From contig NZ_QVMT01000009.1 in assembly GCF_003418935.1 (NCBI RefSeq), positions 186,001-250,000 on the forward strand: a stretch of 64,000 bases of DNA, in the 5' to 3' direction. A model generated the notes under the pieces. It was not told the DNA's origin. It saw only the letters and a list, made by a program, of their open reading frames with translations, and did no database searches. Positions 43,444 through 45,721 of the stretch are shown here, piece by piece; positions within the stretch are counted from its first letter, which is position 1, and each line of letters begins with the position of its first letter. Both the position numbers and the translations under genes were made by a program. This stretch comes from Emticicia sp. C21 (lineage in GTDB: Bacteria; Bacteroidota; Bacteroidia; Cytophagales; Spirosomataceae).

Positions 43444-43908
43444 TTATAATAATGGTATAGGACGCACTGTTCTCTCCTCTAATGAAATAAAAGTTTCAGT
43501 ACGCTGAATGCCCTGAACTTTTTGTACCTTATCGTGGAGGACTTCCCGAAGATGAAGCGTATCCCGACAAACTATCTTGGCAAAGATACTATACATACCA
43601 GTAGTATAGTTAATACTAACTACTTCTGGTATTTTTTCGAGTTGGTCGGCCACCTCATCATATAGTGAACTTTTATCTAAGTATATGCCAATGAATGCGC
43701 TTATGTCCCATCCTAGTTTAACAGGGTCAACAATCAGTTGCGAACCTTTTACAATGCCCATTTGTTCCATTTTTGCCATCCTGACATGCACGGTTCCTCC
43801 TGAAACAAAGATTTTCTCGCCAATAGTAGTATATGGCATCTTGGCATCCTGCATTAATAATGATAAAATCTTCAAATCTGTTTTATCAATTTCTAAATTT
43901 TTGTCCAT
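43444..43908 (-). CDS. Lrp/AsnC family transcriptional regulator
   Basis: About 154 residues from MDKNLEIDK. The N-terminal helix-turn-helix is IDKTDLKILSLLMQDAKMPYTTIGEKIFVSGGTVHVRMAKMEQMGIV, and the C-terminal RAM ligand-binding domain follows (GWDISAFIGIYLDKS, EVVSINYTTGMYSIFAKIVCRDT). It probably senses an amino acid. Upstream ATGs at 43917 and 43938 are possible but would add only a few non-conserved residues. It is divergent from the structured RNA gene; no target site is evident. Confidence 0.93.
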   Translation of the reverse strand: MDKNLEIDKTDLKILSLLMQDAKMPYTTIGEKIFVSGGTVHVRMAKMEQMGIVKGSQLIVDPVKLGWDISAFIGIYLDKSSLYDEVADQLEKIPEVVSINYTTGMYSIFAKIVCRDTLHLREVLHDKVQKVQGIQRTETFISLEERTVRPIPLL

Positions 43909-44018
43909 TGAAAGCATATGTTTTTGCGAATTTATCAATAATTATATTTAATAATTAATAATTATCTAAATATTTGAGAAAATTTATAAAAAATTTGCAA
44001 TTAAACAGATTTATGTCG

Positions 44019-44026
44019 TAACTTTG
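44019..44026 (+). promoter_or_regulatory. Promoter of the tRNA-like RNA
   Basis: The -7 element TAACTTTG, with TTTG at 43994-43997 as -33 (21-base spacing), fits the Bacteroidota promoter. It predicts a transcript start near 44032, 35 bases before the tRNA-like acceptor stem. Confidence 0.75.
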
Positions 44027-44031
44027 TAATG

Positions 44032-44277
44032 TCAAAGCGAGAGAAAAACAGCCTTGGCGATGATAATGTAAGGTGATGAAATTGGCAGCCATGCCCTCCT
44101 GTCTCGGGGGTGGTGATAATAGGACAAACGCAGCATAAAGCCGGACAATTTTAGTCGACTGGGATTGACCACCAAAATTTGTACTGTGGCTAACTACACC
44201 GTGGGCGGTTCGAGTCCCCCTCTTACAGCGTGAAGTATGAAAGATTTATGATTAAATTTCTTTCATACTTTTTTTTT
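44032..44277 (+). ncRNA. Stand-alone structured RNA with tRNA-like ends and a large variable-arm insert
   Basis: Between a good promoter and a strong terminator, with no ORF. A tRNA-like fold can be drawn. Acceptor stem: TGTAAGG (44067-44073) with TCTTACA (44221-44227), 7 bp with one G-U, then G228 as discriminator position. D-like arm: ATG/CAT with AAATTGGCAGC loop (44076-44092). Anticodon-like arm: CCCTC / GGGGG with loop CTGTCTC (44094-44110), placing GTC at the anticodon. T-like arm: GGCGG TTCGAGT CCCCC (44204-44220) with one C-C mismatch. Between them lies a 93-base insert (44111-44203), closed by GGTG/CACC and containing an ACAATTTT/AAAATTTGT helix. CCA is not encoded, and residue 37 is T rather than a purine, so a normal Asp tRNA is doubtful. 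It could be a degenerate tRNA, a regulatory tRNA-like RNA, or a known class (for example 6S-like) I do not recognise. Confidence 0.7.
44233..44277 (+). terminator. Rho-independent terminator of the tRNA-like RNA
   Basis: AAGTATGAAAGA and TCTTTCATACTT form a perfect 12-bp stem, followed by nine T. It begins 5 bases after the tRNA-like 3' end. Confidence 0.92.
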
Positions 44278-44339
44278 AAGTATGTTTGCTTAACAAAAAC
44301 ATTATTTGGTTTTTAGTTTGTTGATGAAGTGTAATTGCG

Positions 44340-44374
44340 ACACGCAGTTCCAAATTGAGGATTGCGTGTTTTTT
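44340..44374 (+). terminator. Second hairpin-T-run downstream, possible back-up terminator or DUF819 leader
   Basis: ACACGCA and TGCGTGT form a 7-bp stem (plus an inner TCC/GGA), followed by six T, about 110 bases upstream of the DUF819 ATG. No separate gene lies between the two hairpins, so it may be a fail-safe terminator or a leader attenuator. Confidence 0.6.
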
Positions 44375-44482
44375 ATTTGAAGCTTTTTTGCTATTTTTCG
44401 TATGAATCAGAGCCATTTTACGATGATTCTTAATTTACCTATCTTATAGAATAATCAACAAAGAAAATCAAACCCTCATTGG

Positions 44483-45721
44483 ATGACCCCGAACTCTCCT
44501 CTATTTATAAATGACGCCATTGCACTTGGCATCCTTCTTGGTACACTAGCCCTTATCTTTTATTCAACCAGAGTTAAAGCCTTTGAGAAAATCTATAAAA
44601 TCGTTCCGCCCATTTTATTATGTTTCTTTATTCCAGGTTTATTCAGCTCTTTTAATATTATATCAGCCGAGCAATCACAATTAGATGAGACTGCGTCCAG
44701 ATTTTTATTGCCAACCTGTCTAGTATTCTTTACGTTGGGAATTGACTTTCAGGCTATTAAGCGTTTAGGAGGAAAAGCAATATTTGTTTTTCTGGTCGGG
44801 GCTATAGGTGTAATGATTGGTGGCCCTTTGGCGTTGTGGATTGGCAAAAATATTGACCCTGGCTTTTTAAACAGGAATGGTGAAGAAGTATGGAGGGGAT
44901 TAGCAACCATAGCTGGGAGTTGGACAGGAGGCAATGCTAATCAATTGGCGCTAAAAGAAGTATTTCAGCCCGCTCCCAACGTTTTCGCCCAAACGAGTGT
45001 CATAGATGTATTGTTTGCTGAATTATGGCTGGGGTTATTATTATATTTTGTTGGAAGGGCCAAATTGATTGATAAACAAATGAAAGCCGATTCATCAGTC
45101 ATTGAGGAAATCAGAATTAAAGTTGAGAATACTAGTGCGCAACAAAAAAATCCTGATTTTCAGGAATTGATTATTTTACTGGCTGTAGGTTTTGGAATTA
45201 CTGCTGTTTCCCATTTCATTGCTGACATCATCGCGCCTTTTATTGAGCAAAATTACCCAATGTTGAAAGCATATAGTCTGGCATCAAAATCTTTCTGGAT
45301 TGTGACCATTGCTTCTTCTTCGGGTTTAATATTATCAACAACCAAAGCCCGGAAATTAGAAACCTGGGGAGCAACTAAATTTGGTACTTTGTTTTTGTAT
45401 ATGCTGATTGCAACCATAGGTATGCAATTGCATATTTTTGATGCTTTTCAGAATCCTACCTTATTTATTGTTGGTTTAATCTGGATTCTAACACATGCTA
45501 TTTTTATTTTAATAGCGGCAAGAATGGTGAGAGCTCCATTCTTTTTTACGGCAGTTGGCTCACAGGCCAATGTCGGTGGCGTGGCTTCAGCCTCAGTTGT
45601 TGCCGCCGCTTTTCACCCGTCTTTGGCACCAATTGGAGTACTATTGGCTATCTTAGGAAATGCTATTGGTACGTATTGTGGATATGTTACGGGTCTAATT
45701 ATGCAATGGATTGCAAATTAG
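44483..45721 (+). CDS. DUF819 family integral membrane protein
   Basis: A 412-residue inner-membrane protein with about ten to twelve hydrophobic helices. Family segments: KIVPPILLCFFIPGLFSSFNII, FLLPTCLVFFTLGIDFQAIKRLGGKAIFVFLVGAIGVMIGGPLALWI, the conserved LATIAGSWTGGNANQLALKEVF, and near the end FFFTAVGSQANVGGVASASVVAAAFHP...GVLLAILGNAIGTYCGY. The paired glycine-rich Asn motifs (GGNAN, ANVGG) resemble transporter re-entrant loops of an inverted-repeat fold. Substrate unknown. The Wzi-like gene follows 65 bases later in the same direction. Confidence 0.93.
   Translation: MTPNSPLFINDAIALGILLGTLALIFYSTRVKAFEKIYKIVPPILLCFFIPGLFSSFNIISAEQSQLDETASRFLLPTCLVFFTLGIDFQAIKRLGGKAIFVFLVGAIGVMIGGPLALWIGKNIDPGFLNRNGEEVWRGLATIAGSWTGGNANQLALKEVFQPAPNVFAQTSVIDVLFAELWLGLLLYFVGRAKLIDKQMKADSSVIEEIRIKVENTSAQQKNPDFQELIILLAVGFGITAVSHFIADIIAPFIEQNYPMLKAYSLASKSFWIVTIASSSGLILSTTKARKLETWGATKFGTLFLYMLIATIGMQLHIFDAFQNPTLFIVGLIWILTHAIFILIAARMVRAPFFFTAVGSQANVGGVASASVVAAAFHPSLAPIGVLLAILGNAIGTYCGYVTGLIMQWIAN

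Follow-up and report, generated by a model that had tools for sequence, protein, structure and literature searches.

What is the role of a stand-alone RNA gene whose product would begin and end like a tRNA and carry a giant insert in its variable arm? Such a gene lies in Emticicia sp. C21 between an AsnC-type gene (43444-43938, minus strand) and a DUF819 gene (44483-45721, plus strand) of the window, that is, the whole stretch of 64,000 nucleotides that was analyzed. An initial annotation had read it either as a decayed tRNA kept under its own promoter or as a tRNA-mimic regulatory RNA. On the basis of a comparative analysis of bacterial and phage genomes, we consider it slightly better than an even bet (roughly 55%) that the product of this locus is a non-decoding carrier RNA, processed like a tRNA, on which asparagine is made and which replaces the asparagine synthetases AsnA and AsnB.

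The RNA gene and its fold

The order of the gene is a promoter (TTTG, 21 nt, TAACTTTG), a leader, the tRNA-like body and a 12-bp terminator. Its features and the neighboring regulator are as follows:

43444..43938, minus strand: AsnC-type (Lrp/AsnC family) regulator, divergent from the RNA; Pfam PF01037 and PF13404
43994..44026, plus strand: putative Bacteroidota-type promoter, TTTG (43994-43997), 21 nt, TAACTTTG (44019-44026), read from the sequence
44067..44229, plus strand: whole tRNA-like RNA, 163 nt, ending with G73-C74; CA is not encoded
44067..44073, plus strand: 5' strand of the acceptor stem, TGTAAGG (U1, G2), paired with 44221-44227; G73 at 44228 and C74 at 44229
44076..44092, plus strand: D arm, 3-bp stem and tRNA-Leu-like 11-nt loop (A14, A15, G18, G19)
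44094..44110, plus strand: anticodon arm CCCTC CTGTCTC GGGGG, loop at 44099-44105; anticodon GUC, U37, C38
44112..44200, plus strand: giant variable arm, basal stem GGTG (44112-44115) / CACC (44197-44200)
44129..44188, plus strand: inner helix of the variable arm, 44129-44138 with 44179-44188
44142..44157, plus strand: apical hairpin of the variable arm, two-sided changes at 2 of 3 modelled pairs
44160..44171, plus strand: conserved variable-arm motif TGG(G)RTTGACCA
44203..44220, plus strand: T arm, loop TTCGAGT, one bulged pyrimidine in the stem
44233..44277, plus strand: predicted intrinsic terminator, perfect 12-bp hairpin and T run, from sequence and fold

The promoter and the perfect terminator hairpin named in the initial annotation are both present. 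In 45 of 56 host loci, TAnnTTTG is found no more than 130 nt upstream of the first element; 500 base shuffles gave this in 6.5 loci on average. The regulator matches the NCBIfam AsnC equivalog model with an E value of 6.6e-46 and 155.9 bits, below the curated cut-off of 227. Downstream of the terminator, at 44302-44376, the window also contains a conserved sequence (TTTGGTTTTTAGTTTGTTGATGAAGTGTAATT or close variants) and, after it, a terminator-like hairpin; stretches of this type were also seen downstream of the element in several genera (L032, L034, L040, L131, L138, L140 and L161).

A single full-length copy of the RNA was found in its own genome, which also has 48 matches to the Rfam tRNA model. 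Ordinary tRNA-Asp(GTC) genes, about which the initial annotation had asked, are present elsewhere in this genome. A tmRNA variant was ruled out by the normal tmRNA (125.4 bits) found elsewhere in the genome, and a copy that is mobile only was ruled out by the single genomic copy together with the lack of any plasmid match for the element.

Taken alone, the sequence does not fold better than its shuffles (z -0.64), and the structural evidence is therefore comparative. Comparison of 39 distinct sequences from the family shows pairing in 95.5% of 1325 cells and two-sided changes at 13 of 34 pairs. The number of two-sided cells is 84, compared with 25 in shuffles (a control that leaves relatedness in) and at most 18 with the partner slid. 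The stems of the tRNA-like arms drawn in the initial annotation therefore covary, and the fold of positions 44067-44229 is that of a complete class II tRNA with a large structured variable arm.

In 115 distinct relatives from hosts and phages, G2-C71, G73, C74, U8, A14 and A15 are each found in all 115, and U1-A72 in 114 (one has A-U). Pair 3-70 is U-A in 110, otherwise A-U, G-C or C-G, and in none G-U. TGG is present in the D loop of 111, and the T loop starts with TTCGA in 114 and with TTCAA in one. The element thus has a cloverleaf with the D-T loop tertiary core of canonical tRNA (RF00005), and its continuation as G73-C74 corrects the earlier account of the 3' end. TGG[CT]A, with A and not U at 20a in our numbering, was found in the D loop of 57 of 64 unselected host elements.

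Two supposed defects need to be read differently. The 3-bp D stem, with its 11-nt loop, is the normal D arm of a class II tRNA (tRNA-Leu); its pair 11-24 is split between C-G (20) and U-A (19) among the 39 family sequences, and position 10 is A or U in 97 of 97 parsed elements. The supposed C-C mismatch of the T stem is more plausibly a single bulged pyrimidine, since 81 of 97 parsed relatives lack the extra nucleotide. Of the features held against a working Asp tRNA, U37 and the giant arm still count, whereas the D stem and the T-stem mismatch do not.

Phage loci were picked by the exact anticodon-arm motif, and their loops are uninformative on loop conservation. The loop was judged on 64 distinct host elements, which had been found by BLASTN or by a covariance model (R1, built from 40 family sequences) and not through the loop motif. 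An unbiased stem search read a GUC loop in 59 of them and an AUC loop in one; in two (the first copies in L216 and L218) the stem under the GUC loop is mismatched, and in two (L148) another hairpin replaces the 5' half of the anticodon arm. The Asp-like GTC and G73 pointed out in the initial annotation are hence nearly invariant. Position 37 is U or C in all 60 loops read and position 33 is C in three and G in one, so that the element does not show the U33 with purine 37 of canonical tRNA. A33 was seen in L430 and G33 in L441, and the anticodon stems of L415 and L430 are altered in sequence with pairing kept.

The variable arm could be parsed in 108 of the 115 distinct elements, and all four basal pairs form in 107 of these with diverse sequences (GGAG/CTCC, GGGG/CCCC, GAAG/CTTC, GTGG/CCAC and GTAG/CTAC among others). 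Two-sided changes occur at 5 of 7 modelled pairs of the inner helix, to which RNAalifold adds three pairs; an insert closed by GGTG/CACC with a helix of its own, as first described, is well supported. The arm measures 36-120 nt in hosts and 45-99 nt in phages, and G[GAT]?T[TAG]GACCAC is present in 57 of the 77 parsed elements from hosts and in 28 of the 31 from phages.

Distribution in Bacteroidota and phages

ARAGORN made no call in the window or at the elements of 40 related loci, the exception being two compact copies called tRNA-Asp(atc). These (L171:1501-1577 and L172:1501-1577) are 77-nt relatives without a variable arm, with the loop CTATCTC and G73-C74, and no AsnC was seen in the flanks examined. 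Rfam gave nothing at the elements in 10 related sources and nothing in the window, where four matches at E values up to 10 all lay far under gathering scores; a hit to another known family, which would have spoken for a different fold, was not found, nor did the element match the tmRNA model (RF00023). Searches of the open-access literature showed no description of this RNA, and to our knowledge no tRNA-like RNA of such build has been known.

BLASTN identified the element in all 11 genomes of the genus, including the close relatives in which the initial annotation had expected it, and in 203 of 222 genomes of the family. R1, which gives 185.2 bits for the window element (its training set contains the window sequence), finds it throughout the order; the raw order count (353 of 390 genomes) includes ordinary tRNAs and was set aside. 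Re-examination of 18 weak-match genomes revealed full-length elements in G450 and a degenerate 116-nt element in G503, and the best matches of the other 16 span 77-98 nt. In the class, 215 of 395 genomes match R1 at an E value of 0.001 and, by a stricter count, 68 at E values of 1e-13 or less, every match being at least 108 nt long. A second model, R2, detected 46 of 395 genomes of the phylum at an E value of 1e-12; outside the class, three genomes (G1136, G1144 and G1201) have best matches of 100-105 bits, and five others gave 85-87 nt matches of 61-64 bits that look like ordinary tRNAs. The element is therefore conserved across Cytophagales, in other families of the class and in one further class of Bacteroidota. 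The exact anticodon-arm pattern also occurs in at least 119 stretches in named genomes, and the 80 of them listed all bear Bacteroidota names. In L143-L147 and L280, three to six elements follow one another in tandem at a spacing of about 200 bp, and several of these arrays have hairpins in the spacers.

The element is also carried by phages. The pattern occurs in 70 IMG/VR stretches, on contigs of up to 326 kb; R1 matches every one of the 70, including two that are cut by contig ends. A 636,363-bp uncultured phage record has the element as well (BLASTN), with tRNAs nearby. At least six tRNAs are present in the fetched stretch of 16 of the 31 viral loci scanned (out of 70), the next tRNA lies only 4-8 nt from the element in L356, L372 and L411, and several of the arrays holding the element also have an ordinary tRNA-Asp. 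In two viral contigs (L367 and L380), the element is located 24-25 nt upstream of a tmRNA. PHROGs matches were obtained for 8 of 10 proteins tested from nine IMG/VR-listed viral loci, including a terminase large subunit and a portal protein encoded close to the L358 element. Since the RNA is conserved with compensatory changes across the phylum and carried by phages, the decayed tRNA of the initial annotation was rejected.

Several other observations were made in these phages. Seven phage elements (L349, L376, L377, L380, L389, L408 and L413) have an additional hairpin in the D loop. A second odd tRNA-like sequence occurs in arrays of large phages (L405:5064-5185(-), L405:5269-5412(-), L409:7478-7599(-), L356:7682-7830(-), L360:4907-5050(+) and L360:5866-5974(+)), with the acceptor AGTCAGG/CCTGACT or close variants, a Leu-like D arm, a T arm and a long insert, and with no evident anticodon arm. 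A tryptophan halogenase-like gene (L376:3-1085(-)) lies near the tRNA array of a 207-kb viral contig.

The AsnC neighbor and the asparagine enzymes

AsnC is encoded divergently upstream of the RNA in 117 of 167 distinct host loci, and no other arrangement of the two was seen. The 50 loci without AsnC comprise 37 with at least 1.5 kb visible upstream, which include the window's own locus (absent from the database used), and 13 with less. More class- and phylum-level loci have the same neighbor. Across 395 genomes, an AsnC orthologue is present in 66 of 68 RNA-bearing genomes and in 23 of 327 without the RNA; the cut for orthologues (E value of 1e-47, at least 52% identity) leaves a narrow gap to the next proteins (at most 49%).

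Twenty regions, from the 23 genomes with AsnC and without the RNA, were inspected for the gene divergent from AsnC. In 7 of 20 it is an asparagine synthetase, either AsnB (L450, L459, L463 and L465) or an AsnRS-like asparagine synthetase A (L455, L456 and L464). The asnC/asnA pair of E. coli, 151 bp apart, has the same geometry. On the other hand, no divergent synthetase or element was seen in 20 regions (G232 counted in; two of them short) where AsnC is not beside the RNA, from 19 RNA-bearing genomes. A search for a divergent element upstream of AsnC in 20 genomes without an RNA match yielded a single convincing case, a derived RNA in L451 (29 bits). It lies in an AsnB-bearing genome (L451:569-682(-)) and has the same acceptor and T arm ends, its D and anticodon arms not being recognizable. 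A tRNA-like stretch with the T-arm motif and a different acceptor was seen upstream of AsnC in L454. A protein near AsnC in 50 of 146 loci is presumably SufB, and AsnC may therefore serve other genes.

Our survey of the asparagine enzymes covered 77 genomes: 39 carry the RNA, 19 have AsnC only and 19 have neither. The synthetases searched for in the RNA-bearing genomes were AsnA and AsnB, and GatCAB was read from GatB alone of its three subunits. AsnB above the curated cut-off was found in 0 of 39, 9 of 19 and 6 of 19 genomes, respectively, GatB in 39 of 39, 13 of 19 and 11 of 19, and AsnA in 2 of 39 (G249 and G862), 2 of 19 and 0 of 19. Genomes with the RNA thus differ from the 38 without it in AsnB (0 vs 15; Fisher p 4e-6) and in GatB (39 vs 24; p 1e-5), with two genomes on either side having AsnA; it should be noted that these tests ignore phylogeny. 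AsnB-like proteins under the cut-off (207-243 bits vs 499) are present in 7 of the 39. The family f61 is split: G610, G643 and G756 have the RNA and GatB, with no AsnB above the cut-off, and G571, G780 and G673 have AsnB, without GatB and the RNA, all six genomes being at least 99% complete. Neither GatB nor AsnRS was found among the loci fetched. Other solutions exist, because GatB occurs without AsnB or AsnA in 11 of the 19 genomes having neither AsnC nor the RNA, and 7 of the 19 AsnC-only genomes have none of the synthetases looked for.

These associations bear on the second reading of the initial annotation. The RNA might be a regulatory tRNA mimic of the AsnC regulon that acts by binding AspRS, GatCAB or AsnC or by base-pairing with target RNAs, and so tunes asparagine or translation by its charging state without being a biosynthetic intermediate. 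A stand-alone transcript divergent from a regulator gene, loop motifs that are conserved in the variable arm, an anticodon loop that hardly varies and tandem copies in some lineages would all fit. However, regulation does not predict the absence of AsnB together with GatB in every RNA-bearing genome, the conservation of U1-A72 with G73-C74, or the packing in phage tRNA arrays. The mimicry itself is supported, but a role in asparagine metabolism is favored over regulation because of the associations with AsnC, asparagine synthetase and GatCAB, and we regard the regulatory reading as a rival that is unlikely.

A possible carrier RNA for asparagine

According to PMC9976931, bacterial Asp identity resides in G73, G10, G34 U35 C36 and C38, with G1-C72 and G2-C71 conserved; U1-A72 confers amidation of Asp-tRNA-Asn, and G1-C72 and U20a prevent amidation of Asp-tRNA-Asp. 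GatCAB likewise reads U1-A72 according to PMC4206432. The element has G73, G34 U35 C36, C38 and G2-C71 and lacks G10 and G1-C72. The features required for amidation are all present, with U1-A72 in 64 of 64 unselected host elements, no G1-C72 and no U20a. The tRNA-Asp of the same genome has G1-C72 and the loop CTGTCAC, and its tRNA-Asn has U1-A72; the element therefore combines the anticodon loop of tRNA-Asp, except for position 37, with the end pair of tRNA-Asn. With the main Asp determinants and U1-A72 on one RNA, a discriminating AspRS and GatCAB could make asparagine without mischarging tRNA-Asn.

The proposed mechanism is as follows. AsnC, whose divergent linkage is observed, would control transcription of the RNA. 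The transcript would be trimmed to tRNA-like ends and receive CCA, as suggested by the conservation of its ends and the tight packing in phage tRNA arrays. A discriminating AspRS would charge it with Asp through G73, G34 U35 C36, C38 and G2-C71, and GatCAB would amidate Asp-RNA to Asn-RNA, U1-A72 being present and G1-C72 and U20a absent; the determinants and the co-occurrence with GatB are the observed parts of this step. The pyrimidine at 37, the non-invariant U33 and the giant variable arm may keep Asn-RNA out of decoding, in which it would insert asparagine at Asp codons, and Asn would be set free as an amino acid. The RNA would stand in for AsnA/AsnB, and phages would carry it with their tRNAs.

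Several lines of evidence argue for this carrier: GatB in all 39 RNA-bearing genomes with AsnB in none and AsnA in two; the divergent and co-occurring AsnC; the asparagine synthetase that fills the slot in RNA-less AsnC loci, as in E. coli asnC-asnA; the split in family f61; and the union of Asp identity nucleotides with U1-A72. Against it stand AsnA in G249 and G862 and the sub-cut-off AsnB-like proteins, the missing G10 and G1-C72, the possible service of AsnC to other genes, the lack of a divergent synthetase where AsnC is not beside the RNA, and the RNA-less genomes without AsnB/AsnA. Absence of AsnRS, if such is the case, would also explain GatB without AsnA/AsnB and without this RNA.

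A related alternative is that GatCAB in the absence of AsnA/AsnB reflects the known route on tRNA-Asn with a non-discriminating AspRS, and that the linkage to AsnC is an old accident of gene order. The cell's own tRNA-Asn, with its U1-A72, would suffice as substrate, and PMC4206432 suggests this route for genera with AsnRS, GlnRS and GatCAB and no synthetase. Such an accident is difficult to reconcile with an AsnC that tracks the RNA across 395 genomes, non-adjacent cases included, with a synthetase occupying the slot in 7 of 20 loci without the RNA, and with an RNA that combines Asp and amidation determinants, and we consider it rather improbable. A working translational tRNA with an exceptional variable arm (for Asp, or for Asn at Asp codons in special contexts) is very improbable: the complete tertiary core, the tRNA-like ends and the position inside phage tRNA arrays, 4-8 nt from neighbors, agree with it, but the genome itself and several of these arrays also contain an ordinary tRNA-Asp, the loops read have a pyrimidine at 37, U33 is not invariant, and the variable arm is 36-120 nt long.

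A broader form of the carrier hypothesis, which we put somewhat short of even odds, is that a dedicated non-coding RNA under AsnC serves as carrier for free asparagine and replaces the synthetase in much of Bacteroidota, its giant arm acting as enzyme scaffold and in ribosome exclusion, and that giant phages use it to secure asparagine. We know of no other non-decoding carrier RNA for a free amino acid. If true, an amino acid would be synthesized on a purpose-built RNA carrier instead of a decoding tRNA. It would also explain the asparagine supply of some bacteria that lack an asparagine synthetase and possess AsnRS, GlnRS and GatCAB; PMC4206432 counts 18 such genera, with Bacteroidetes among the clades concerned. 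Mechanism aside, a widespread class of RNA that is carried by large phages among their tRNAs was missed by ARAGORN and Rfam in this analysis.

The RNA can be compared with several known systems. Like tmRNA, it is a tRNA-like RNA of bacteria and phages that is bigger than a tRNA; unlike tmRNA, it has no match to the Rfam tmRNA model and no G3-U70. The non-ribosomal tRNA-Gly of staphylococcal cell-wall synthesis is another tRNA-shaped RNA for non-ribosomal use of an amino acid, but it is of ordinary size, its amino acid is transferred unchanged and it has no known link to AsnC or GatCAB. With class II tRNA-Leu, the element shares the 3-bp D stem, the 11-nt loop, U8, A14, A15 and the T44-[V stem]-NT geometry at the base of the arm; it differs in having G73 (115 of 115) and not A73, a GUC loop, U37 and an arm of 36-120 instead of 10-20 nt. 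With tRNA-Asp, it has G73, G34 U35 C36, C38 and G2-C71 in common, and the loop of the cell's own tRNA-Asp differs at position 37 only, whereas U1-A72 in place of G1-C72, the lack of G10, the giant variable arm and U37 set it apart. A further parallel is tRNA-dependent asparagine synthesis by a non-discriminating AspRS and GatCAB (Deinococcus, Thermus, S. aureus and Bdellovibrio), in which, as proposed here, Asp on an RNA with U1-A72 is amidated by GatCAB and AsnA/AsnB are absent. That route uses the decoding tRNA-Asn as carrier and requires a non-discriminating AspRS, whereas here the carrier would be a separate RNA that has the anticodon of Asp and a giant variable arm and lacks a normal decoding loop.
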